Source of the DNA: Microbacterium schleiferi | GTDB taxonomy: Bacteria; Actinomycetota; Actinomycetes; Actinomycetales; Microbacteriaceae | DNA: 64,000 bases | Direction: 5' to 3' | NCBI RefSeq assembly: GCF_015565955.1 | Contig: NZ_CP064760.1 | Location: 2,046,001-2,110,000, forward strand | Shown: in pieces, positions 14,960 to 35,998 of the stretch | How positions within the stretch are numbered: the first letter of the stretch is position 1 | Layout: every line of letters starts with the position of its first letter | The notes under the pieces: generated by a model | Databases searched by the model: none | The model's input: the letters and a program-made list of their open reading frames with translations, nothing else | What the model was told of the DNA's origin: nothing | Program-made: the position numbers and the translations under genes

Positions 14960-15889
14960 TCAGCCTTCGCCGGCGAGCATGCTCACGAGAAGAGCGATCA
15001 TCAGTTCCTTCTCTTTCGGGTCGCTCATCGCGACCATGAGCGTGATCGCTGCCAGCGCGTTGTTGGAGATCCGCGCCACGCCGCGCGCGTCATCGAGCAC
15101 CTGGTTACGGGCGAGGAAGTGCACGAACAGCGCCGCCGCGCTGCGCTTGTTCCCGTCGGTGAGCGGGTGGTCCTTCACGACGAGGTAGAGCAGATTCGCC
15201 GCCTTCTCCTGCACCGTCGGGTACAGATCCACTCCCCCGAATCCCTGATAGATCGTCGCCACCACACCGCGCAGCGCGTCGCCCCGTTCGCCGCCGAACA
15301 GCGCGTCGACCGGAAACTCCGCCCCGACTTCGTCAATCACCGCCCGCGCCTCGTCATAAGTCAGCGTCCAGGTCGGCACATCGCCGTCAACAACCGGGAT
15401 CTCGCCCTCGTCGTAGTCGCGGAGCGCGCGCAGGCTCGGCAGATATCTGGCGACGACTTCGGCTACCCCGGCAACGAGCTGATCAGTCGACCGCGACAGA
15501 ACCTTCACAAGCGAGTCGAGCTCCAGGAGCCGGCGCTCGTTGGTCGCGACTCCCTTCAGCATGTATCTCTTGAGCACATCGGTCGACCAGCGGCGGAACT
15601 CCACAGCGCGGGCGGAGTTTGCGCGATACCCGACTGCGAGGACGACGTCGAGGCTGTAGAACGTCACCGGCCTGGCGACCCCAGCAATATGCACTTTTTG
15701 CATATTGCTCTCGGAGTCCACCTCATCCGACCGCAGGATGTTGCGGATGTGGCGCGAGACGCCCGACTGATCGATCCCGAACAGCTGCTCGATGTCAGCC
15801 TGCGACGCCCACACGGCCTCACCCTCCGTGCGCAGCTCGAGGGACACCACACCATCCATGGACTCGAAGATCTCGATCGCCGACGTCAT
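14960..15889 (-). CDS. RhuM-Fic/Doc fusion protein
   Basis: A 309-residue protein. The N-terminal half is the RhuM domain (WASQADIEQLFGIDQSGVSRHI, later YRANSARAVEFRRWSTDVLKRYM). The C-terminal third is a Fic/Doc fold with the active-site motif HPLTDGNKRSAA, which matches HPFxxGNKR apart from Leu for Phe. Fic/Doc proteins transfer phosphate or AMP to target proteins, and Doc is a toxin. RhuM is a DNA-binding-like domain of genomic islands. No separate antitoxin gene is adjacent, so the RhuM part may restrain the Fic part in cis; that is inference. It follows the relaxase, 112 bases downstream on the same strand. Confidence 0.85.
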   Translation of the reverse strand: MTSAIEIFESMDGVVSLELRTEGEAVWASQADIEQLFGIDQSGVSRHIRNILRSDEVDSESNMQKVHIAGVARPVTFYSLDVVLAVGYRANSARAVEFRRWSTDVLKRYMLKGVATNERRLLELDSLVKVLSRSTDQLVAGVAEVVARYLPSLRALRDYDEGEIPVVDGDVPTWTLTYDEARAVIDEVGAEFPVDALFGGERGDALRGVVATIYQGFGGVDLYPTVQEKAANLLYLVVKDHPLTDGNKRSAAALFVHFLARNQVLDDARGVARISNNALAAITLMVAMSDPKEKELMIALLVSMLAGEG

Positions 15890-16001: not shown

Positions 16002-18746
16002 TCAGATCGACATCCCACGCCCCGCGCTCGGCGCAACGTGAGGCCCGCGGGTGAAGGCCTCGTGTCGATCTCGAACCTGCGCAGCCCGCTGCATCTCTGC
16101 CTGGGCTGCGCGCACGGCGTCCTGCATCGTCAGCTCCGTGGTGCCGCGCAGCATGCAAGTCGCGACGTTCGCGCGCGCGGCGCGGCCGGTGGGTGCGACA
16201 GTGACCACCTCGTTGTGCTCGCGTCCACGGGTGAGGCCGACGTAGAGGCCGGCGGCGTCCACGTCAGGGCCGACGATCGAGGCATCCACCGTCTCGCCCT
16301 GGATGCCGTGCACGGTCGACGCGTACGCGAGTTGCACGTGCTCGAGCGCGTAGACGCGTGTGACCTTCCGCACGTCGCCGCTGTCGTTGACGGATCGCAG
16401 CAGCAGCGAGTCTTCGGCGATCTTGCTGACGACCCAGGTGGCGCGATTCTCCACCCCCACACGACGATCGTTGCGGCGCGTCTGAACGGTGTCGCCGACG
16501 AGGATGCGCTGCTCCCCCATGCCCCACGCGAGAACGGTCGGGTCCAGTTCCCCGCGATCGACCCGCCGCTGCTGGATCTCGTCGTTGAGTGCGCCGGCGT
16601 CGCTATTGGCGCCGGTGACGAGCGCGACACGCTTGCCGCGCGCCTGCCATGCGAAGTAGGCGTCGATCATGTGCCGATGGGCATCCTCCGCATGGTCGAC
16701 TCGTGTCAGGTGCCCGCGTTCGTCCAGTCGGCTCGCGATACGCGCCGCGTGCTCGGCATCGTCGGGATGCCGCAGCTCGAGCGTGAGGGCCGCGTACTCG
16801 GCATCCGCAAATCGGTGCACCGCGTCCAGCTCGACCGCGGCGCAAGCGTGCCGGACGGCGGCAGCCATGGCACCCACGTGTCCGACGGGGAGAGCTTGAT
16901 AAGGGTCGCCGACCATGGCGACGCCGACACCGCGCTCGTGGGCGAGTTCTGCGAGCGCGTTCGCGACCTGCAGGTCGACCATGCCGGCCTCGTCGACGAC
17001 AATGCGGTCCCGCGCGCGCAGGACGAAGCTCGTCGGGCCGTCGTAGATCGCTCCGGTAGCAGCATCCACGTCGCCGATCGACAGTCGATGCCAGGTCGTG
17101 GCACCCGCGGCATCCGTGCCCCACCGGAATCCGTGATCCGCGAGGAGCGCGTGGATGCTGGTTGCGGCCGCGCCGACCTCGCGCGCTGCAACCGAAGCCG
17201 CCTTGCGCGTGGGCGCGACGATGAGCATGCGTCGGCGTTGCGCGCTCAGCGCGCGAAAGACGACCCGCAGCATGGTCGTCTTGCCTGCACCGGCCGGCCC
17301 GGTGACGGCGACCAGGCCGTCGCTTCCGGCGATCGCGGCTGCGGCGACGAATTGCGCCGAGTCCAGTTGGCCGCACTCCCCACCGGCCTGCTTTCGCAGT
17401 TCGGTGGGGAGGAGGGAGCGTCCGGGCGTTGCGATTCGGTCGAGCCGGTGCGAGAGGAAGATCTTCGACCTCATCGTTTCGGTCGCCATGAAGACCTTGA
17501 CGTGCGCGGGGGCGTCGGCCCCGCCTCCGAGGTCGACCGACTCGCGCAGCGCTCGTGCGGTGACGTCGTCGATCACCTGATCGAGGTCGGCACGCGCGGC
17601 GACGATTCCACTGCGTGAGAGCGCGCGGATGGCGCCGGCGCGCACGTCGAAAGCACTGAATCGCCCACTGGAGCCCACAGAGCGCCCGTCCGCGTCGACG
17701 ATCGCCATCGCCGCGAGCAGGTCACGATCGAGCACCGCAGGATCGACGTGATCGAGTTCGACCGTGGCGCGCTCCTGGCGCAGGGTCTGATCGATCTCGG
17801 CGATCTCGTCGCGCACGACTGCTTCCCACGAGCCTTCATCGAGGCCCTGGGGCTTGTTCGGCCTCGACACCGCCCACGCGCGCCGATCGATCTGCGTCAG
17901 CGCGTCCATGCTGGGCGCGGACCCGCCGTGAGCAGACGTCCATTCAGCGATCAGGCGTGCACGGTTGGCTTCGATCTGCGCGGACCGACGAGACAGCGGG
18001 CGCACGGTAGCGGCCAGCTCAGCGATCTCGCCGTCGATCCCGATCGTGTAGCCGTGGCGGGCCAGCGCTGCGATCCACTCAGGATCGGTGCGCGCAGCAA
18101 GCTCACCTTCGGCATTCACAACGGTGTGCAGCTTCATCGCGACTCGGGAGTCGACGTTCGACCACCTGCCGTCGGCGCCGAGCACCTTCACGTTGAGCCA
18201 CAGATGACGATGGATGTGCGGGTCAAGCGCGCGCGAACGGCGGTGCTGCAACTCGACAACCTCGAGCCGGGTGATGTCTTCGCGGATGAGCCCGTTGTGT
18301 CCACGTCGGGCATTGAGTTGCCGCTGCCAGGTGAGGAGCACTTGGTCTCTCAGCCGGTCCTGCAGCGCTTCGAACTCTCGTGCGAGCCCAGGATGCAGAA
18401 GCGCGGCGATGCTGTAGGACTTCGGGTGATTGATCGTCCCGTCGAGCACCAAGTCAGCGTCGGGACTCAACCGCTGACGGCCTCGTTCCTCCCCCGTGAT
18501 CGGATCGTGGCCGGTCAGCCATACGCGGAGTCCACCGGCGGTCAACTCGTCGCTCGAGATGGCACCGTTCTCCACGATGAATCTCGATACGGTCGCACCT
18601 GAGACATCGCTGTAGTTCTCGAGCGCTTCGACACCGTAAAGGTGCGGGAGGTGAGCATCGCAGGTGCCCTCCATCGCGTACGCGATCGCGTGGCGGACCC
18701 CGCGCGAATTAGCACCCCGTTTCCAACGCTCCAGGCCACCTCTCAT
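16002..18746 (-). CDS. MobF-family conjugative relaxase/helicase
   Basis: A 914-residue TraA/TrwC-like protein. The N-terminal relaxase has the three-His metal site DPHIHRHLWLN near residue 175. The C-terminal half is a RecD-like helicase: Walker A GPAGAGKTTM, Walker B RIVVDEAG, GDPYQALPVG, and AYASTVHGIQGETVDASI with GLTRGREHN. It nicks one strand at oriT and unwinds it for transfer. The N-terminus (MRGGLERWKRGANSRGVRHAI) lacks an obvious early Tyr motif; Tyr23 and Tyr37 are candidates. No coupling protein or secretion genes are present. The start has no strong RBS. Confidence 0.88.
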   Translation of the reverse strand: MRGGLERWKRGANSRGVRHAIAYAMEGTCDAHLPHLYGVEALENYSDVSGATVSRFIVENGAISSDELTAGGLRVWLTGHDPITGEERGRQRLSPDADLVLDGTINHPKSYSIAALLHPGLAREFEALQDRLRDQVLLTWQRQLNARRGHNGLIREDITRLEVVELQHRRSRALDPHIHRHLWLNVKVLGADGRWSNVDSRVAMKLHTVVNAEGELAARTDPEWIAALARHGYTIGIDGEIAELAATVRPLSRRSAQIEANRARLIAEWTSAHGGSAPSMDALTQIDRRAWAVSRPNKPQGLDEGSWEAVVRDEIAEIDQTLRQERATVELDHVDPAVLDRDLLAAMAIVDADGRSVGSSGRFSAFDVRAGAIRALSRSGIVAARADLDQVIDDVTARALRESVDLGGGADAPAHVKVFMATETMRSKIFLSHRLDRIATPGRSLLPTELRKQAGGECGQLDSAQFVAAAAIAGSDGLVAVTGPAGAGKTTMLRVVFRALSAQRRRMLIVAPTRKAASVAAREVGAAATSIHALLADHGFRWGTDAAGATTWHRLSIGDVDAATGAIYDGPTSFVLRARDRIVVDEAGMVDLQVANALAELAHERGVGVAMVGDPYQALPVGHVGAMAAAVRHACAAVELDAVHRFADAEYAALTLELRHPDDAEHAARIASRLDERGHLTRVDHAEDAHRHMIDAYFAWQARGKRVALVTGANSDAGALNDEIQQRRVDRGELDPTVLAWGMGEQRILVGDTVQTRRNDRRVGVENRATWVVSKIAEDSLLLRSVNDSGDVRKVTRVYALEHVQLAYASTVHGIQGETVDASIVGPDVDAAGLYVGLTRGREHNEVVTVAPTGRAARANVATCMLRGTTELTMQDAVRAAQAEMQRAAQVRDRHEAFTRGPHVAPSAGRGMSI

Positions 18747-19256
18747 GGCGCCAGGGTACGACCGGTTTTCTCGATTATCCAGGGATTTTTCCGAAGTGTA
18801 GCCAAGTGGCGGCGGATGCAGATTTGTGCATGCGGACCGGCCGCGGTCATCCCGTGATGCCTGCGTGCATCGTCATTCGCCAGGTGATCAGTTCGATGCT
18901 CGTCTTCGCCGTTCGGTCACCTCGTCGCGGCACTGCGTCGCGATGTGTCGGAGCCCCCTGTCTCGCAGCGGCGAGTCCGTTCGGAAGCCTAGAGCGATCA
19001 TCTCGCGGTCGCGTTTCGGTAGCTCGGCAGCGGGGAGGCCCACTCATTGCTCCAGCGAGGTGCCCGCAGTCGCCCGGAGCAGGGCGGGCACTCCATCGGC
19101 CGGGCAATAGCAACGCGGCACTGGGACGACGCGGCGACGGTGTCGCGGCGGATCTGGCGACCGAAGTCGCCCATCGCCGGCATGCCCTTGCCGACCCCCT
19201 CCACGCGCCCGGTCAAGGACCCTCCACTAGTTCAACGCACGGATGGGTAACACTGC
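18747..19256. other. 510-bp stretch upstream of the relaxase, oriT candidate region
   Basis: Apart from one possible small ORF (18888-19043, minus) nothing firm is seen here. The position just upstream of a MobF relaxase start is where oriT usually lies. I could not identify a nic site or clear inverted repeats by eye. Confidence 0.3.
18888..19043 (-). CDS. Possible 51-residue basic protein
   Basis: GTG at 19043 has GGAG six bases before it. The frame codes a charged, Arg-rich 51-residue peptide (LPKRDREMIALGFR ... RDEVTERRRRASN). Codons are only moderately GC3-rich. It lies on the relaxase strand 141 bases upstream and could be a small mobilisation accessory. No family recognised. Confidence 0.3.
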   Translation of the reverse strand: MGLPAAELPKRDREMIALGFRTDSPLRDRGLRHIATQCRDEVTERRRRASN

Positions 19257-19322
19257 CTAGCAGCAGTCCTGGTCACACAGTTCAGGCGGGCAGCTGAAGG
19301 GCTCGCAACAGTAACTAATCAC
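19257..19322 (-). CDS. 21-residue six-cysteine peptide coupled to the CDF exporter
   Basis: A very short ORF whose GTG (19322-19320) overlaps the TGA of the CDF gene (19321-19319), with GGAGG five bases before the start. It codes 21 residues with Cys at 5, 6, 11, 16, 20 and 21 (CC-x4-C-x4-C-x3-CC), plus Asp/Glu. The overlap, the RBS and the cysteine density suggest a genuine metal-binding peptide made with the exporter, like a minimal metallothionein or a metal chaperone. The family is unknown; the function is inferred from composition and operon. Confidence 0.6.
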   Translation of the reverse strand: MISYCCEPFSCPPELCDQDCC

Positions 19323-19990
19323 GACACCTCCTCTGCTTCGAATTCTTGATCGCCGTCGTCGTTCTGGAGCAATTCGAACGGTGATTCGATGTCGCCGCGC
19401 CAGGCCTCGATTCCCTCGCGCATCGCGAGCGCAGCGATGATCAGTGCGGCGATCGAGTCGGCCCACGTCCAGCCGAAGAGCGAGTTCAGCAGCAGGCCGA
19501 TCAGCACGGTGCCGGACAGGTAGATGCACAGCAGCAGTTGCTTGGCGTCTGCCTGGACGCTCTTGGACCCGAGTTCGCGGCCGGTCCGGAATTGGAACCA
19601 CGCGAGTGCGGGCATGACGACAAGGCTCGCGACCGCGATACCGATGCCAAGCGGGCTGTGCTCAACCGGTTCGACGCCGGCGAGGGCGATGATCGCGTCG
19701 ACGGTGACGTACACGGCAAGCGCGAAGAACGCGATGCCGATCGCCCGGACGGTCGGCTTCTCCCACCGTTCGGGATTCTTCCGGGTGAACTGCCATGCCA
19801 CCGCCACGGCCGAGAGGACCTCGATGAATGAGTCCAGACCGAACCCGATCAGCGCAGCCGACGACGCGGCCGCACCCGCAGCGACCGCGATAATGCCCTC
19901 GAGGATGTTGTAGGTGATCGTGAACGCGACGATCAGTCGCACCCGCCGGTGCAGCGTCACGCGGCGATCAGCCGTGATCGCCGCGCTCAT
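19319..19990 (-). CDS. CDF-family heavy-metal cation exporter
   Basis: A 223-residue cation diffusion facilitator with about six membrane segments. The metal site helices are FGLDSFIEVLSA and a second one containing WADSIAALIIAALAMREGI, matching the Asp-rich CDF pattern with Asp in each. A long C-terminal cytoplasmic domain is absent; the protein ends in an acidic tail. It exports divalent metals against protons. The ATG overlaps the TGA of the CmtR-like regulator (ATGA), so the two are coupled. The cognate sensor suggests cadmium or lead as substrate. An upstream frame extension lies inside the regulator and was rejected. Confidence 0.88.
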   Translation of the reverse strand: MSAAITADRRVTLHRRVRLIVAFTITYNILEGIIAVAAGAAASSAALIGFGLDSFIEVLSAVAVAWQFTRKNPERWEKPTVRAIGIAFFALAVYVTVDAIIALAGVEPVEHSPLGIGIAVASLVVMPALAWFQFRTGRELGSKSVQADAKQLLLCIYLSGTVLIGLLLNSLFGWTWADSIAALIIAALAMREGIEAWRGDIESPFELLQNDDGDQEFEAEEVS

Positions 19991-20343
19991 TGGACATCCT
20001 GCACACAGCAGCCAGGAACGGTACAGGCCGGGTCGATACACGGTGCGCTCTCGTCCACCGCGAGCGTCACTTCGAGCAACGAGGTCAGCGCGTGGGAAAG
20101 ATGCGGATCGGCGATCTCGTACCGGGTCTGCCGGCCCTCAGGCTCGGCGACCACGATGCCACAGTCACGCAAACACGCCAGGTGGTTGGACACATTTGAC
20201 CGGGTCAGCTCAAGCTCCCGCGCAAGCACAGCCGTGTAGCTTGGCCCATTCAGCAGAGTCATCAGGATCCGTGAACGCGTCGGGTCCGCCATGGCCCTGC
20301 CGAGCCGGTTCATCACATCCACTCGCGTGGCAATAGTCAGCAC
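19987..20343 (-). CDS. cmtR: CmtR-like ArsR/SmtB cadmium/lead-sensing repressor
   Basis: A 118-residue ArsR-type repressor, the same length as mycobacterial CmtR and close to it in LGRAMADPTRSRIL, LTRSNVSNHLACLRDCGIVV and EGRQTRYEIADPHL. The Cys in LACLRDCG corresponds to the CmtR metal ligand, and the C-terminus carries extra cysteines (CIDPACTVPGCC). It would release DNA on binding Cd or Pb and allow expression of the CDF exporter. GTG start with TATAGT six bases upstream, so the mRNA is probably leaderless. Confidence 0.88.
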   Translation of the reverse strand: MLTIATRVDVMNRLGRAMADPTRSRILMTLLNGPSYTAVLARELELTRSNVSNHLACLRDCGIVVAEPEGRQTRYEIADPHLSHALTSLLEVTLAVDESAPCIDPACTVPGCCVQDVQ

Positions 20344-20349
20344 GCGATG

Positions 20350-20355
20350 ACTATA
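20350..20355 (-). promoter_or_regulatory. -10 element of the cmtR operon
   Basis: TATAGT on the minus strand, six bases before the GTG start. GACTA/TAGTC inverted halves at 20349-20353 and 20379-20383 surround the promoter and may be part of the operator. Confidence 0.5.
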
Positions 20356-20452
20356 CAGTTTGTGCTGACCTATCACGTAGTCGCACTTCAGCCGGCTGGC
20401 AGAGTGAATCGGCTGCACTTTCGTTCCGTTCTTCAAGCAAGGATGGAACTCG

Positions 20453-20758
20453 ATGAACAGGAAGTACTCGCCGGAGATGCGTGAGCGTGCGTTGCGGGTG
20501 TTCGCGGAGGCGCGGCCGGAGCACCCGAACATGATGAGCGCGGTCCGTCATGTCGCCGGTCTGCTCGGGATGAGCCCGGAGACGCTGCGCCTCTGGCGGC
20601 GCCGCTACGAGGTCGACGCCGGCACCAAGCCAGGCGTCTCGACCGACGCCGCTCAACGGATCAAGCAGCTGGAGAAGGAAGTCTCGGAGTTGCGGAAGGC
20701 GAACGAGATCCTCAAGGCTGCGAGCGTGTTTTTCGCGAAGGAGCTCGACCGCCCCTGA
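20453..20758 (+). CDS. IS3-family transposase, OrfA
   Basis: A 101-residue OrfA: N-terminal helix-turn-helix (LRVFAEARPEHPNMMSAVRHVAGLLGMSPETLRLWRRRYE) and a C-terminal leucine-zipper-like coil (RIKQLEKEVSELRKANEILKAA) ending SVFFAKELDRP, standard for IS3. In active elements a -1 frameshift fuses it to OrfB. The reading frame is complete, but the OrfB that follows is degraded, so it cannot act alone. Terminal repeats were not identified. Confidence 0.88.
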   Translation: MNRKYSPEMRERALRVFAEARPEHPNMMSAVRHVAGLLGMSPETLRLWRRRYEVDAGTKPGVSTDAAQRIKQLEKEVSELRKANEILKAASVFFAKELDRP

Positions 20759-21615: not shown

Positions 21616-21918
21616 ATGATGTGGGATGACGGCGACGGCGGCTACGACATGGGCTTCGGGATGGGCATGGGCTGGGGCTGGGGTTGGCTGTGGGTCATCC
21701 TCATCCTGATCGGGATCGGGCTGCTGGTGTTCGTGGCGATCCGGCTGAGCACGCGCACGAACGCGGCCCCGCCCGCCGCCGCACCTCCCGCGGTCGGCAC
21801 GCCGGCCCCAGTGGCTGAGGTGTCGTCGGCGCGGCGGATCCTCGAGGAGCGGTACGCGCGCGGTGAGATCGACACGGATGAGTTCAACGAACGTATGCGT
21901 ACTCTCAACGGCGCATGA
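21616..21918 (+). CDS. Small membrane SHOCT-domain protein
   Basis: A 100-residue protein. The N-terminus is Met/Gly/Trp-rich (MGFGMGMGWGWGW), with one transmembrane helix (LWVILILIGIGLLVFVAIRL), an Ala/Pro linker, and a C-terminal SHOCT motif (ARRILEERYARGEIDTDEFNERM). The Met-rich start may touch copper. AGAAGGAG lies upstream of the paired ATGs at 21616/21619. Its TGA overlaps the oxidase ATG, so the two genes are coupled; a small SHOCT protein before a multicopper oxidase is common in actinobacterial copper islands. Confidence 0.85.
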   Translation: MMWDDGDGGYDMGFGMGMGWGWGWLWVILILIGIGLLVFVAIRLSTRTNAAPPAAAPPAVGTPAPVAEVSSARRILEERYARGEIDTDEFNERMRTLNGA

Positions 21919-23374
21919 GCGGGGGGATCACACGCCGGCAGGCTCTGACGATCGGCGCTCTCGGTGTGGGCGCGCTCGGCATCGGCGCGACCGGGTTGGT
22001 GTGGACGACGGTCGGATCGCAGACCTCCGGGAGCGGAACGGCGACCGCGACGTCGGGGGCGGCCGGGTGGGTCGAGCCGTCGGTGCTGGAGTCGGTCGAC
22101 GGTGTGCTCGATGTCACGTTGCAGGCGGCCGAGCGGGAGGTGGAGGTCGGTGGCGCGTCGGTGCGGATGCTGACCTACAACGGCACCGTTCCCGGACCCA
22201 CGCTTCACCTCCGTCCCGGTGATCTCCTGCGGGTGCGGCTGCAGAACGACCTCACCGACCCGACGAATCTGCACACGCACGGTCTGCTGGTGTCGGCATC
22301 CGACAACAGCGACAACCCGTTCCTGCGCATCGGTGCCGGGGAGAGCTTCGACTACGAGATCCAGCTCCCGGACGATCACCCGGCCGGAGTGTTCTGGTAC
22401 CACCCGCATCATCACGAGCTGGTCGCCGATCAGGTGTTCGCAGGCCTGTACGGGGCGATCGTCGTGGACGAGGAGGACTGGACGGTCACGCCCCCGCGGG
22501 TCGTGGTCGTCTCGGACGTGACCGTCTCAGGCGGCGCTGTCGCATCGGTGTCGGGAGTCGAGCGGATGCTGGGACGCACCGGCGAGGTGCTGCTGGTCAA
22601 CGGCCAGCCCTCCCCGACGCTTCCCGCGCCCGCGGAATCGGAGCAGCGACTCCTGATCGTCAACGCGTGCACGAGCCGCTACCTCGACCTGCGACTGGGC
22701 GATCTGGACGCCCGGGTGCGCGGTATCGACTCACACCGCCGCACCCCGCAGTCCGCGGATCGGCTGGTCCTCGCCCCGGGGAACCGCGCCGATGTCGTGA
22801 TCACCACTCCCACAGCGGCGACGGACCTGATCGCCGCCGCCTACGACCGAGGGCAGGCGGGGATGGGGATGATGGGCGGTGGTTCCACGACGTCTTCCGA
22901 GGCTGTCGTGCTCACCGTGGTCCCGGATGCCGGAGCGACGCCCCCGTGGTCGCCGACCCGGTCGTCAGTGCCCGCCGCGACCTTCGCGAGACCGCGGTCG
23001 ACGGCACGCGGACGCTCACGATGAGCATGGGCATGGGCGGCGGCGCGGGCATGCGGTTCCTGATCGACGGGCGCGCGTTCGATGCGGGCCGGACCGATCA
23101 GAGTGTGACGATCGGGACCGTCGAGGACTGGACGATCGTGAACGTGTCGCCGATGGACCACCCGTTCCACCTGCATGTCTGGCCGATGCAGGTCCTCCGC
23201 ACGGGAGGCGCCGACGTTACCGGTCTCGACGTCCGAGACGTCGTCGACGTGCCCGCGGGGACGTCGGTCACGGTGCGGATCGCGTTCGACCGGTTCCCCG
23301 GCCAGACGGTCTACCACTGCCACATCCTCGACCACGAAGACCTCGGCATGATGGGCGTCGTCGACGCCGCGTAA
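21915..23374 (+). CDS. Multicopper oxidase (CueO/CopA-like), single frameshift
   Basis: Twin-arginine signal (TRRQALTIGALG), then cupredoxin domains with copper ligands HTHGLLVSASDN and WYHPHHHEL in the N-terminal part, and HPFHLHVWPMQVL plus YHCHILDHEDLGMMG at the C-terminus. Met-rich loops (MGMMGGG, MSMGMGGG) suggest a cuprous oxidase, which detoxifies Cu(I) outside the membrane. The first frame runs to 23024; the C-terminal frame carries on to 23374. The shift is next to a C5 run at 22941-22945, so one base is probably missing there. The gene would be about 486 residues if intact. Confidence 0.85.
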
Positions 23375-29197: not shown

Positions 29198-31440
29198 ATG
29201 ACCGACCCACACGCGCACCACCACCACGCGCGCACCACCACCGACCACCCAGACCCGGCGGCCAAGCCGACCGACGCGGCCGTCCACGACGAGCACGCCC
29301 GACACGGCGGCCATGAGGCGCACGCCGACCACGGTGCGCACGCCGACCACGACGCGCACGCCGACCACGGTGCACATGACAGCCACGGGGAGCATGCCGG
29401 TCATGACAGCCACGCCGACCACGGGGAGCATGCGGGCCATGGCGGGCACGCCGGACATGGCGCACATCATGTCGCCCAGTTCCGGCGGCTGTTCTGGATC
29501 AACCTGATCCTCGCCGTCCCGGTCGTGGCGTTCTCCGGCATGTTCGGGATGGTCCTGGGCTACTCGGTTCCCTCGTTCCCCGGAGCACAGCTGATCTCTC
29601 CCGTGCTGGGCACCGTGATGTACTTCTGGGGCGGCTGGCCGTTCCTCAGCGGCGCGGTCAGCGAACTCCGAGCCCGCAAACCCGCGATGATGCTCCTCAT
29701 CGGTCTCGCGATCACCGTCGCATTCTTCGCATCCTGGGGCGCCACCCTCGGACTCCTCCACCGTGAGCTCGAGTTCTGGTGGGAGCTCGCGCTGCTGATC
29801 GTGATCATGCTGCTCGGCCACTGGATCGAGATGCGGTCCCTCGCGCAGACCACCTCCGCACTGGACTCCCTCGCCGCGCTCCTGCCCGACGAAGCGGAAC
29901 GCGTCGAAGGCGACCAGGTCGTCACCGTCTCCCCCGCCGACCTCCGACTCGGCGATGTGGTCGTCGTCCGCCCCGGCGGCAGCGTCCCCGCGGACGGCAG
30001 GGTCGTGGAGGGCCGCGCCGACATGGACGAATCCATGGTCACCGGCGAATCCCGCCCCGTCAGCCGGACCGCGGGCGACACGGTGACCGCCGGAACCGTC
30101 GCAACAGATTCAGGCTTGCGGGTCGAGGTCACCGCTACGGGCGATGACACCACCCTCGCCGGCATCCAGCGGTTGGTCGCCGACGCGCAGAACTCGACCT
30201 CGAGGGCGCAGCGGATCGCCGACCGCGCCGCCGGCTGGCTGTTCTGGTTCGCGCTGGGTGCCGCCGCACTCACCGCGCTCGTCTGGACGCTCGTCGGAGA
30301 CCCGGACACCGCGGTGATCCGGACGATCACCGTGCTGGTGATCGCGTGCCCCCACGCGCTGGGTCTGGCCATCCCCCTGGTCGTGTCGATCGCCACCGAG
30401 CGCGCGGCCCGCGGCGGTGTTCTCGTCAAGGACCGCCTCGCCCTGGAGAGCATGCGGACCATCGACGCGGTCCTGTTCGACAAGACCGGCACCCTCACCA
30501 AGGGCGAGCCGACCGTCACCGGCATCTCCACCGCCGATTCCGACTCCGCCGAGACCGTTCTGGCACTCGCGGCCGCCGCCGAAGCCGACAGCGAACACCC
30601 CCTCGCCAAGGCCATCGTGCGAGCTGCCCGCGAGAAGGATCTGACCATCCCGTCCGCTGCCGGCTTCACCTCGTCCCCGCGGTCGGGGTGACCGCGACCG
30701 TCGAGAACCATGAAGTCCGCGTCGGCGGCCCCGCTCTCCTCGAAGAGCTCGGCCTCAACGAGATCGAGGATGCCGACGCGTGGCGAGCGGAAGGCGCGAT
30801 CATCCTCCACGTCGTCCGAGACGGTCGGGCCATCGGCGGCCTCAAGCTCGCCGACGAGGTCCGTCCCGAGTCGCGCGATGCCGTCGACGCGCTCCATGCC
30901 CTCGGCATCGAGGTCGTGATGATCACCGGCGACGCCGAAGCCGTCGCCCACGCGGTCGGCGAGGACCTCGGCGTCGACCGGGTGTTCGCGCGCGTGCGCC
31001 CCGAGGACAAGTCCGCCAAGATCGCCGAGCTGCAGGCCGAAGGCAAGCGCGTCGCGATGGTCGGAGACGGCGTCAACGACGCGCCCGCCCTCGCCCGAGC
31101 GGACGTCGGCATCGCGATCGGCGCCGGCACCGACGTCGCCATCGCCTCCGCGGGCGTGATCCTCGCCAGCGACGATCCCCGGTCCGTGCTGTCGGTGATC
31201 GAGCTGTCCCGAGCGAGCTACCGGAAGATGAAGCAGAACCTGTGGTGGGCGGCCGGCTACAACCTCATCTCCGTGCCCCTCGCCGCCGGCGTCCTCGCTC
31301 CCATCGGATTCGTCCTCCCCGTGTCCGTCGGGGCGATCCTGATGTCGCTGTCCACGGTGGTGGTCGCCCTCAACGCGCAGCTGCTGCGGCGCCTCGACCT
31401 CACCCCGGCGAACAGCGCCCGCACGATCCTCGGCCGCTGA
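29198..31440 (+). CDS. copB: CopB-type copper P1B ATPase, His-rich N-terminus, single frameshift
   Basis: The first 90 or so residues are a His/Asp/Gly-rich metal-binding tail (repeats such as HADHGAH and HAGHGGH). Then come eight membrane segments with the CPH motif (IACPHALGLAIP), TGES actuator, DKTGTLTKGE phosphorylation site and GDGVNDAPALARAD hinge. CPH plus a His-rich tail is the CopB/P1B-3 form, exporting Cu(I)/Cu(II) or Ag. The first frame ends at 30691, and the rest is read in another frame; the indel is near 30671-30690. About 747 residues when joined. A weak GGAG precedes the ATG. Confidence 0.9.
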
Positions 31441-32847: not shown

Positions 32848-33116
32848 ATGACCGCCCAGATCTCGCCGACTGCTCTCACCGTCGACGGAGGCGTCGACCT
32901 GCTCCTCCCCGTGAGACACCGCTGGAGGTACTGGACGCGTTCGTGGCCTCGTGCAACGTCGGCGCGTGCGGGTGCGGCGACACCTTCGTCTCGCGCATCA
33001 CCAATGTGGAACTGCACGACGAACCCGGACGCCGCAGGGTTCGGATCAGCGGCGACATCACCCCCGACGAGGTCCTCAGCGAGCTTGCCACCACCTCGCT
33101 GTCGCAACAGTCCTGA
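32848..33116 (+). CDS. Small cysteine-rich protein, single frameshift
   Basis: GAAAGGGA lies eight bases before the ATG. The first frame reads MTAQISPTALTVDGGVDLLLP; after the C4 run at 32907-32910 the frame must change to continue ETPLEVLDAFVASCNVGACGCGDTFVSRI and end at 33116. The joined product is about 89 residues. The CNVGACGC cluster suggests metal binding. I do not recognise the family. It lies between the ArsR regulator and the MFS gene and is probably part of that unit. Confidence 0.6.
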
Positions 33117-33168
33117 CGACCCGACTGCGACTCGAGACCACCCCTCAGAAGCAACCCACGAGGCCCCC

Positions 33169-33321
33169 TTGTTCGACTACGCCCAGCCTCCCCGCACAAC
33201 AGGCGCCTCCCCCGCCGCATCCCGCTCCGCAGCTGACTGCTCGCCCATCATGGCGGACTCCGCGCGCCGAGCACCCAGCGGGAAGCCCGCGGGCAGACGA
33301 GTGCCGCGACGAATCGCATGA
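33169..33321 (+). CDS. Possible 50-residue leader coupled to the MFS gene
   Basis: A TTG-started frame of 50 residues rich in Ala, Arg, Ser and Pro with no known motif. Its TGA overlaps the ATG of the MFS gene (ATGA), which is the main support. It may only serve translational coupling. Confidence 0.3.
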   Translation: MFDYAQPPRTTGASPAASRSAADCSPIMADSARRAPSGKPAGRRVPRRIA

Positions 33322-34598
33322 CCGCCGCTACGCCGCCGCCGCGCCTCGGATTGCGGGAGAACGCTCCGCAGTTCGCGCTGCTCGTCGCCGTGAACGCACT
33401 CGTCGGGGGCATGGTCGGTCAAGAGCAGACCGTCCTGCCGTTGCTCGCGCGCGACGTGTTCGGGATCACCGGATACACCATGGTGCTCAGCTACGTCGCC
33501 GTGTTCGGAGTCACCAAGGCGATCTCGAACTGGTTCGCCGGCACCCTCTCGGACAGATTCGGACGCAAACCGGTGCTCCTGGCCGGGTGGCTCGTCGCAG
33601 TGCCCGTCCCGCTGATGCTGATCTGGGCACCCGACTGGGGATGGGTCGTCGCCGCGAACGCGCTCCTCGGGGTGAGCCAGGGCCTGACCTGGTCCACGAC
33701 CGTGGTCATGAAGATCGACCTCGTCGGCCCCCGCCAGCGCGGTCTCGCGATGGGACTGAACGAAGCCGCCGGCTACGGCGCCGTCGCCGTCTCCTCCCTC
33801 CTGGCCGGGTACCTCGCCAGCGAGTACGGGCTGCGTCCCGCACCGTTCCTGCTCGGCATCGCCTACACCGCCCTCGCGCTCATCATCACGGGCATCTTCG
33901 TCCGGGAGACCCACGGGCACGCTCGCGCCGAGGCCGCACAGCTCGCACCCGCCACCAGCCGGCCCCGCCAGGACGCGGACCTGACGCACCGGCGAATCTG
34001 GTTCCTCGCGAGCATCCGCGAACCCGCCCTCGCCTCCGCGAGCGCCGCCGGGCTCGTGAACAACCTGAACTTCGGCCTCTCATGGGGGCTGTTTCCGCTG
34101 CTGTTCGCCACCCGCGACCTCTCCACCGCGCAGATCGCGCTCCTGTTCGCGCTGTACCCGGGCGTGTGGGGCATCGGGCAGCTGTTCACCGGCGCCCTGT
34201 CGGACCGCATCGGCCGCAAGCACCTCGTCACCGGCGGCATGGCCCTCCAGGCCATCGCCCTGATCATCATCGGCGCGGGCAGCGGGCTCGGTGCCTGGGC
34301 CACCGGGACGATCCTTCTCGGCCTGGGCACGGCGATGGTCTACCCGACCCTCCTCGCCGTCGTCGGCGACGTCGCGCACCCCGCGTGGCGCGCACGCGCC
34401 GTCGGCGTCTACCGCGTCTGGCGGGACCTCGGCTACGCCGTCGGCGCAGTCATCGGCGGAATCGTCGCCGACCTCCTCAGCCTGCAGGCCGCACTGTGGG
34501 TCGCCGCAGCGATCTCCGCGGTCGTCGCCGCGATCGTCGCCGGGAGGATGTACGAGACTCTCTCCACACAACACCGCAACGGAGCATCGGCCACCTGA
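33318..34598 (+). CDS. MFS efflux transporter
   Basis: A 426-residue major facilitator with 12 predicted helices. The MFS A-motif is seen twice, GTLSDRFGRKPVL (helix 2-3) and GALSDRIGRKHLV (helix 8-9). A charged His-containing loop joins the two halves (RETHGHARAEAAQ). It lies downstream of the ArsR regulator and the Cys-rich small protein, so export of a metal or metalloid compound is likely, but the substrate is not shown by sequence. It is unshifted, unlike several neighbours. Confidence 0.88.
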   Translation: MTAATPPPRLGLRENAPQFALLVAVNALVGGMVGQEQTVLPLLARDVFGITGYTMVLSYVAVFGVTKAISNWFAGTLSDRFGRKPVLLAGWLVAVPVPLMLIWAPDWGWVVAANALLGVSQGLTWSTTVVMKIDLVGPRQRGLAMGLNEAAGYGAVAVSSLLAGYLASEYGLRPAPFLLGIAYTALALIITGIFVRETHGHARAEAAQLAPATSRPRQDADLTHRRIWFLASIREPALASASAAGLVNNLNFGLSWGLFPLLFATRDLSTAQIALLFALYPGVWGIGQLFTGALSDRIGRKHLVTGGMALQAIALIIIGAGSGLGAWATGTILLGLGTAMVYPTLLAVVGDVAHPAWRARAVGVYRVWRDLGYAVGAVIGGIVADLLSLQAALWVAAAISAVVAAIVAGRMYETLSTQHRNGASAT

Positions 34599-34831
34599 GC
34601 CCTCTGCGGTGCTCCCAACGCGCCCTCTCCGACGCCGATCCGAGCGCGCACGACGGAGCCTCAATCGTGCACCATCCTGGCCGTACCCCACCCACCTCTT
34701 CCGGGCCACTACCCGAGGTCACCGGTCGCCCATCATGCAAATACCGACAGTTGTCCGCAAGACACGCTGGTGCAGCTCGAGCGCACCCGCCAGCGTCCGC
34801 GGTCGGCGCTACCCTGACCCCGAGGTCACCC

Positions 34832-35998
34832 ATGGGAAGCATCACGGCGTACGAGATCGCGGCGGGCAAGCGCTACCGCGTGCGCTGGCGCGATGACCAG
34901 CAGAAGCAGGTCGAGAAGAAGGGCTTCCGCACCAAGAAGGACGCCGAGCTCTACCTCGCGCACACCGAGGTCTCGCGCTCGAACGGCTCCTATACCGACC
35001 CCGGTGAGGCGCGTATCACTGTCGGAGCGCTGGGCGTCGAGTGGCTGCGCAACAAGAAGCACGCACTCAAGGCTTCCTCGTTCAGCTCCTTGAACACGTC
35101 GTGGCGGGTGTATGTCCTCCCCCGCTGGGGCGACGTTCGGATCGGAGACATTCGCGCGTCGCACGTGGAGCAGTGGATCCGAGAGCTGTCGGAGGGCACC
35201 GCGACGACGACGCGGACGAAGAGCGCGAAGGCCGGCGCAAGCCCCCGGTCTGCAAGCGTCGTCTATCGCGCGCTCGGCGTGCTCGCCGGCATCCTTGACA
35301 CAGCTGTGCGCGACGGACGCATCCCTCGAAACGTCGCTCGCGGCGCTCAGAATCTGCCCCCGAAACAGTCCCAGAAGCCGCGTCGCTACCTGACCCACAG
35401 CGAGGTCGTTCGCCTCGCCGAGGCGACCAACAACGACACGCATAGGACGCTGATCCTTCTGCTCTCGTACTGCGGCCTCCGGTGGAGCGAAGCGATCGGC
35501 ATGCACGTGAGCGACATCATCTTCCCGAGACACCGAATTCAGGTGCAGCGAGCGGCGGTCGAGGTCGAAGGCAAGATCGTGCTCGGCACACCGAAGAACT
35601 GGGAGCGCCGGCTGGTGCCATTCCCGGCCTTCCTGGAAGAGCCGCTGGAGCAGCTGTGTCGCGGCAAGCGCGCCGACGATCTGGTCTTCACCGATCTGCA
35701 GGGCAAGCATCTGCGCCGCGCGAAGACGCAGCACGGCGTGAACTCGTGGTTCACCACGGCGCTCGACCTCGCCGACATCGAGCGGCTGACTCCGCACGAC
35801 CTGCGTCACACCGCCGCGAGCCTCGCGATCTCGTCGGGTGCGAACGTCAAGGCCGTGCAGCGGATGCTGGGACACAAGTCGGCGGCGATGACGCTCGACA
35901 CCTACGCCGACCTCTTCGACGACGACCTCGCCGACGTGGCCGAACGGATGAATCAGGGTGGGCTCAACGCGAACGTCGCGCGGCTCTGGGAGACCTGA
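34832..35998 (+). CDS. int: Tyrosine-type site-specific integrase
   Basis: A 388-residue phage-type integrase. The N-terminal AP2-like arm-binding part (RVRWRDDQQKQVEKKGFRTKKDAELYL) is followed by a SAM-like core-binding domain and the catalytic domain with Arg in YCGLRWSEA, HxxR in TPHDLRHTAA, LGHKS and the nucleophile Tyr in TLDTYADLF. It ends about 215 bases from the ssrA 3' end, where arm-type repeats lie, so ssrA is its probable target. Bases 34599-34831 hold no convincing gene. Confidence 0.92.
   Translation: MGSITAYEIAAGKRYRVRWRDDQQKQVEKKGFRTKKDAELYLAHTEVSRSNGSYTDPGEARITVGALGVEWLRNKKHALKASSFSSLNTSWRVYVLPRWGDVRIGDIRASHVEQWIRELSEGTATTTRTKSAKAGASPRSASVVYRALGVLAGILDTAVRDGRIPRNVARGAQNLPPKQSQKPRRYLTHSEVVRLAEATNNDTHRTLILLLSYCGLRWSEAIGMHVSDIIFPRHRIQVQRAAVEVEGKIVLGTPKNWERRLVPFPAFLEEPLEQLCRGKRADDLVFTDLQGKHLRRAKTQHGVNSWFTTALDLADIERLTPHDLRHTAASLAISSGANVKAVQRMLGHKSAAMTLDTYADLFDDDLADVAERMNQGGLNANVARLWET

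Follow-up and report, generated by a model that had tools for sequence, protein, structure and literature searches.

SmtA, a cyanobacterial metallothionein, has about 56 residues, uses histidine ligands and is encoded divergently from its repressor. In the smtB-smtA system, as presented in PMC7387436, a metal-sensing repressor of the ArsR/SmtB family is paired with a small cysteine-rich protein, an arrangement resembling the one analyzed here. Unlike SmtA, the peptides described here counted 19 to 27 residues, matched no Pfam family at E ≤ 10 (16 members submitted, of which 13 were long enough for the scan) and, at CmtR loci, were encoded after the repressor and in the same orientation. A second parallel is the cmtR-pacL2-ctpG operon of Mycobacterium tuberculosis, another CmtR operon, where a small accessory protein accompanies a Cd exporter; in PMC13043812, PacL proteins are described with a transmembrane helix and cytoplasmic Ala/Glu repeats, PacL2 as binding neither Cd nor Zn, and the CmtR operons of M. 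tuberculosis as cadmium-induced. In contrast, the peptide encoded in the window (i.e., the whole stretch of 64,000 nucleotides of Microbacterium schleiferi DNA analyzed) was thiol-rich and displayed neither a transmembrane helix nor Ala/Glu repeats, and is not of the PacL type.

ArsD, an arsenic metallochaperone working with ArsA, shares with these peptides its vicinal cysteine pairs and its place in arsenic operons, but is folded and longer (more than 100 residues). Short Cys-rich ORFs also occur elsewhere in actinobacteria, and Canestrari et al. in 2020, as cited in PMC9031893, are said to have described mycobacterial polycysteine ORFs as leaderless Cys attenuators of operonic genes. The smallest fungal copper metallothioneins, found in Neurospora (about 25 residues), are eukaryotic, bind copper and harbor a CxC pattern; they are comparable in size and Cys content, and no homology is claimed. 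In functional terms, the peptides reported here would represent the pairing of repressor and metallothionein on a miniature scale.

Judged by its sequence, the window ORF is a member of a family, so far without annotation, of very short Cys-rich peptides from Cd/Pb and arsenic operons of Microbacteriaceae. The features of the locus were the following:

20336..20369, minus strand: probable CmtR operator and promoter, an inverted repeat GTCAGCAC/GTGCTGAC flanking a TATAGT -10-like box
19987..20346, minus strand: CmtR, Cd(II)/Pb(II)-sensing ArsR/SmtB-family repressor of 119 residues (NF047906, PDB 2jsc, PF01022)
19319..19990, minus strand: CDF-type cation transporter of 223 residues (PF01545), membrane domain only, with an acidic tail devoid of Cys and His
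19327..19332, minus strand: Shine-Dalgarno motif AGGAGG for the peptide, read from the sequence, within the 3' end of the CDF gene
19257..19322, minus strand: 21-codon gene of the six-Cys peptide, with a GTG start and a GTGA overlap with the CDF stop

Genes followed one another on the minus strand in the order CmtR, CDF and peptide, with successive 4-nt stop/start overlaps. The CDF ATG at 19990 overlapped the CmtR stop as ATGA, and the peptide GTG (19322-19320) overlapped the CDF stop TGA (19321-19319) as GTGA. The operon and this last overlap (GTGA at 19322-19319), put forward in the preliminary description, were read directly, as was the peptide it had reported (21 residues, six Cys, CC-x4-C-x4-C-x3-CC), whose minus-strand codons GTG ATT AGT TAC TGT TGC GAG CCC TTC AGC TGC CCG CCT GAA CTG TGT GAC CAG GAC TGC TGC TAG give M-I-S-Y-CC-EPFS-C-PPEL-C-DQD-CC. 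Its claim of a good ribosome-binding site held for the motif, AGGAGG being strong, and less so for its position, as 4 nt before GTG is a short spacing. In addition, codon comparison displayed that the ATG codon of Agromyces is ATT in the window copy, which therefore has to start either from the closely spaced GTG, 4 nt after the motif, or from ATT, a rare start codon.

A TrwC-type relaxase with a helicase domain was encoded downstream of the operon (window 16002-18746) and a phage-type integrase at 32951-35998, which together suggest a mobile metal-resistance island. Directly upstream of the CmtR promoter, a small transposase-like ORF (20453-20758; IS3-type first frame, by eye) was followed by degenerate sequence. 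Two further genes looked frame-broken, namely a multicopper oxidase (21915-23374), whose C-terminal part was seen by eye in another frame, and a copper-type P-ATPase (29198-31440), with partial profile coverage and a further ORF overlapping in another frame. A RhuM-like protein with a Fic domain was located at 14960-15889.

The window CmtR scored 174.6 bits against the NCBIfam equivalog NF047906 (cut-off 150), and its best PDB match was 2jsc (Rv1994c, 8.4e-34), in addition to PF01022. Aligned to 2jsc, it kept HLxCLRxCG and the near-terminal C of ...PC, i.e., the metal-ligand cysteines (C57, C61 and C102 in M. tuberculosis CmtR). It also harbored an extra C-terminal Cys cluster, CIDPACTVPGCC, and the CmtR proteins inspected at CmtR-peptide loci had a C-terminal Cys tail of their own (e.g., CxxxxCxxxGCC). 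The CmtR of one other locus (L111) reached 175.5 bits with NF047906, and remaining CmtR-type neighbors were assigned by tblastn alone, at 68-78% identity to the window CmtR.

The motif CTGTATAGTCA preceded the CmtR start exactly at 9 of the 13 loci counted (L117, L121 and L128 being left out), with one mismatch at two (L125, L127); it was diverged in L123 and absent from L120. The TGCTGAC arm of the inverted repeat partly encodes CmtR residues. Since the GTG start of CmtR sits inside the operator/promoter repeat, the mRNA is probably leaderless or nearly so. The window CmtR would presumably release this operator in response to Cd or Pb.

The six-Cys ORF is not a chance occurrence. Among 7,517 short-ORF segments from 127 sequences (758,447 bases, repeat places counted repeatedly), 41 had at least six Cys and 25% Cys, of which 39 were family members (repeats included) and two were unrelated to it (one in L018, within a CDF gene but in another frame, and one in L077, an ArsR tail), compared with one such segment per 49,713 in a third-order Markov simulation. 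Amino-acid sequence was constrained, also at residues between the cysteines, with pN/pS of 0.281 for 14 eight-Cys sequences and 0.291 for five six-Cys sequences (counted pairwise without correction, over 18-21 codons, among rows that are related). Purine-rich Shine-Dalgarno motifs preceded most members and were weaker in L124 and L125. A frameshift fusion of the peptide to the CDF was set aside, no slippery sequence being seen by eye, and the Shine-Dalgarno motif before the peptide favors re-initiation over such a fusion.

Membership in a known family was rejected, as neither the Pfam nor the PDB profile search gave a convincing match; the latter yielded no metallothionein, the best E value (0.66) being for alpha-amylase inhibitor peptides. 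A tblastn search of plasmids with the window peptide and one eight-Cys peptide returned no match, but is uninformative (21-aa queries, low-complexity filter on). Among the papers listed in a literature search, which covered few subscription papers, none dealt with such a peptide as judged by title and opening of the abstract; this is weak evidence for novelty.

The family encompassed 22 distinct places, with peptides of 19-27 residues and 6-8 Cys; "family" covers two Cys patterns here and does not imply a single origin of both. A six-Cys pattern, CCDPxxCPPELCxxxCC, was found in the window, L006, Agromyces and G190, with an eight-Cys cousin of 27 residues in G032, whose start codon was picked by its Shine-Dalgarno motif. 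The eight-Cys pattern, CCDxSCCxxxCADGCxCC, accounted for 15 of the 22 places, L111 displaying seven Cys. In the Naasia genome (G308/L062), the CDF-linked peptide equals the CmtR-linked one, and 155 bp including leader and hairpin align at 93%, indicating that the cassette was copied.

Distribution was sparse within the family of the host, and the order and phylum samples yielded no further convincing member. The peptide was present in 16 of 398 sampled Microbacteriaceae genomes and 11 of 85 genera, the window's own genome included, in addition to Agromyces and a MAG; a 16-peptide profile at E ≤ 0.01 accounted for 15 genomes and 10 genera, and G190 was added from a five-peptide profile alone. 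At E ≤ 0.1, the five-peptide profile matched in 24 of the 398 genomes, partly by chance: weak matches L099, L101, L103, L104 and L106 were non-members on inspection, and L100, L107, L108 and L109 were uninspected. Beyond the own genome, profile A3 at E ≤ 0.01 gave no hit in samples of 396 genomes from the order and 396 from the phylum. As a control, 16 chosen genomes were searched with A3, which picked up 13 of them and missed one real member (G190) and two weak uninspected matches of the five-peptide profile (G071, G323). The six-Cys profile A4 at E ≤ 0.05 added nothing in a second order sample (198 genomes) and gave three weak matches in a second phylum sample (188 genomes), of which the two inspected were not such peptides and the third was L132. 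All of these samples contain same-genus and same-family genomes and were searched with a word-limited first pass.

Neighborhoods of the 22 places, searched by tblastn up to 2.5 kb per side as far as the DNA extended, showed that metal genes accompany the peptide almost everywhere. A CmtR lay directly upstream, without CDF within 2.5 kb, in 12 places (68-78% identical to the window CmtR; its match split over two frames in L128). The order CmtR-CDF-peptide was found in five, the window and L006 having identical sequence. The peptide followed a CDF with an ArsR farther off (47%) in one place (L062), and three had arsR/arsC company (L114, L115, L116). CmtR, CDF/ArsR or arsR/arsC thus stood beside the peptide in 21 of the 22 places; for L126, no metal gene was found within range, which counts against a metallothionein role. 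An arsC match was within range in six places, and in L117 the genes that followed encoded a flavin oxidoreductase with a sub-cut-off ArsO match (52.6 bits against 425) and a fused ArsR-ArsC protein. Since 15 of the 22 places had no CDF within 2.5 kb, a partner restricted to CDF transporters was rejected. The preliminary description had suggested a metal-binding peptide working with a Cd/Pb exporter; the CmtR-type operon and the conservation and constraint of the peptide bear this out in part, but the CDF pairing is a special case beside the 12 CmtR places without CDF and the three arsenic ones.

CmtR being the commonest partner, and carrying its own C-terminal Cys tail, the peptide might bind or load the sensor, removing or delivering metal and so setting the induction threshold. 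This feedback is improbable as its main role, as co-transcription alone would give the same pattern and the three arsenic-operon members adjoin an ArsR type different from CmtR.

Sequences around the peptide also bear on a regulatory role, in which the translation of Cys codons, rather than the product, would control a downstream gene as in the mycobacterial leaders. The peptide precedes arsC in L114 and L116 and may act as an attenuator there; in L114, a strong, attenuator-like hairpin lies between peptide and arsC, which counts against a metallothionein role. Nevertheless, the peptide was behind a regulator or transporter in 18 of 22 places, and the next gene was on the opposite strand in 9 of 21 (L008, L111, L115, L118, L119, L120, L122, L124 and L128, according to a rough GC-based gene picker). 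Unlike the leaderless mycobacterial ORFs, most members have a Shine-Dalgarno motif, and their inter-Cys residues are constrained, so that attenuation is very unlikely for the family.

Strong hairpins after the stop codon (z ≤ -2.5 against mononucleotide shuffles) were found in 11 of 21 places, and long stems with weaker z in L119 and L127; none was strong in the window, L008, L011, L115-L117, L123 and L126. Upstream, most of the eight-Cys loci L111, L118-L122, L124, L125, L127 and L128 had a short GC-paired hairpin whose loop contains ACAA, located about 40 bases before the peptide, between CmtR and the Shine-Dalgarno motif. It is not claimed as a conserved CmtR-peptide hairpin: it was seen by eye in most of 11 leaders, and RNAalifold found only three pairs (-1.4 kcal/mol).

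Two other kinds of ligand-rich tails were observed. Next to a CDF, L077 encoded (at about 2391-2975) an ArsR-type regulator with about ten Cys in its C-terminal tail, CCSCAEHCGCTPGTCACPCC, like a sensor-fused peptide. Near the peptide of L114 and L124 there was a transporter, judged by eye to be of the drug/metabolite type, with a long C-terminal tail rich in His; in L124 it lay upstream of CmtR.

The window CDF consisted of the membrane domain only, without the usual cytosolic C-terminal domain. With a query beginning at 19996, two codons upstream of the true start (as in the search for relatives), it scored 56.9 bits for the cation-efflux membrane domain PF01545 (cut-off 26.6) and 60.3 bits for TIGR01297, under the cut-off of 82.35; the latter match covered 6-196 of 285 and was not full-length. 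An AlphaFold2 model (mean pLDDT 84.5, 22 aligned sequences) displayed six long helices and a low-confidence tail, and nearest PDB relatives were FieF/YiiP. The canonical CDF transport-site residues are HxxxD in the fifth helix. Here Q151 and C155 replaced the H and D of FieF/YiiP, a substitution without exception among the 22 aligned relatives and in keeping with transport of a soft metal.

The preliminary description had proposed a search for the ORF behind related CDF genes. In a search of genome contigs with the CDF, a peptide overlapped the CDF stop in 5 of the best 80 of 119 CDF relatives, namely L006 (a MAG), L008, L010, L011 (Agromyces) and L062 (Naasia); the ORF is therefore conserved in this position, but uncommon. 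The L006 peptide, on a separate MAG contig, was identical to that of the window, and related peptides were found in L008, L010, L011 and L114. In a tree of 85 CDFs, the window, L006, L008, L010 and L011 fell in one clade of seven (support 100/99), with Naasia apart. The remaining two rows of the clade (L007 and L035, Microbacterium) carry the same element, 94.7-99.5% identical DNA over aligned stretches, with a shared 237-bp deletion (window 19135-19371) that abolished the peptide and removed or replaced the CDF tail. The peptide is hence dispensable in these strains.

This loss, along with the GTG at 4-nt spacing, would also fit a decayed or unused window ORF, i.e., a copy with a weak start gone out of use on a mobile element, in a family real elsewhere. 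Such decay is quite improbable, the six Cys, the stop and the Shine-Dalgarno motif being intact and identical in the separate MAG contig.

CDF tails may point to a different function for the sub-group of the window. At least three Cys/His were present in the tails of 56 of 68 other CDFs (L007 included, since the deletion altered its tail) versus none of the 16 of the ESP-tail group, to which the window CDF with its acidic tail belongs, and some CDF ends resemble the peptide (...CDCC in Curtobacterium, CADGCC in L082). The peptide could then be a detached regulatory tail, supplying Cys/His ligands in trans to a CDF that lacks both the cytosolic domain and tail ligands, and so loading the pump or acting as its metal sensor. 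Of the five peptides overlapping a CDF, four fall together with that of the window in one supported clade. Lack of tail ligands makes this a reasonable rival for the ESP-tail sub-group. As a general account it is unlikely, given the 15 places without CDF, the absence of the peptide from 12 of the 16 ESP-tail CDFs (deletion strain L035 among them) and its loss in L007 and L035.

A metal-binding role appeared to be the likeliest reading of the peptide. We give a probability of roughly 0.6 to the window ORF being a translated gene and to the family being cytosolic Cys-rich peptides that serve as minimal metallothioneins of operons responding to metal(loid)s. Conservation across genera, amino-acid constraint, Shine-Dalgarno motifs, operon company, the promoter motif and post-stop hairpins count for it, while the weak start in the window, the loss in L007 and L035 and the presence at only 5 of the best 80 CDF relatives count against it. 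Members are small and very Cys-rich (6-8 Cys in 19-27 residues) and in 21 of 22 places sit in metal operons whose regulation would extend to them, but they do not match the sequences of metallothionein families of the SmtA/PsdMT type. With so many Cys in so few residues and no hydrophobic stretch, cytosolic thiolate binding would be the simplest role, as for SmtA under SmtB. As CmtR operons are cadmium-induced in M. tuberculosis, the peptide should be made on soft-metal entry, and its presence in arsenic operons fits an As(III) ligand.

On our best reading, the peptide would be de-repressed with its sensor and act as a buffer for Cd, Pb or As(III), a scaled-down counterpart of SmtB/SmtA. Binding of Cd(II) or Pb(II) to CmtR would release its own operator. 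One transcript would then provide CmtR, the CDF exporter (in the lineage of the window) and last the peptide, through coupled re-initiation at GTGA. Paired and central cysteines of the peptide would bind the thiophilic ion and lower its free concentration until export, possibly by hand-over to the exporter, or sequestration. Where the operon is an arsenic one, a peptide of this type would retain the As(III) that ArsC produces. Buffering alone would call for high expression, given the small number of ions that six cysteines can bind.

A more far-reaching and tentative proposal is that these are the smallest gene-encoded bacterial metallothioneins known to date. A portable unit made of a ribosome-binding site and a Cys peptide of 19-27 codons, often with a terminator-like hairpin, would have been placed behind CmtR, behind a thiolate-site CDF without cytosolic domain, and beside arsenate reductases, and would pass soft metal(loid)s to the adjacent detoxification step.

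Should the minimal-metallothionein reading be correct, peptides of about 20 residues would form a layer of metal resistance that has gone unnoticed, ORFs so short being rarely reported by gene callers. The family also provides loci in soil actinobacteria where the peptide can be removed and tested alone. It raises the questions of the minimum size at which a metallothionein still works and of whether a CDF without cytosolic domain can borrow ligands in trans, and it suggests a common type of peptide for Cd/Pb and arsenic operons.
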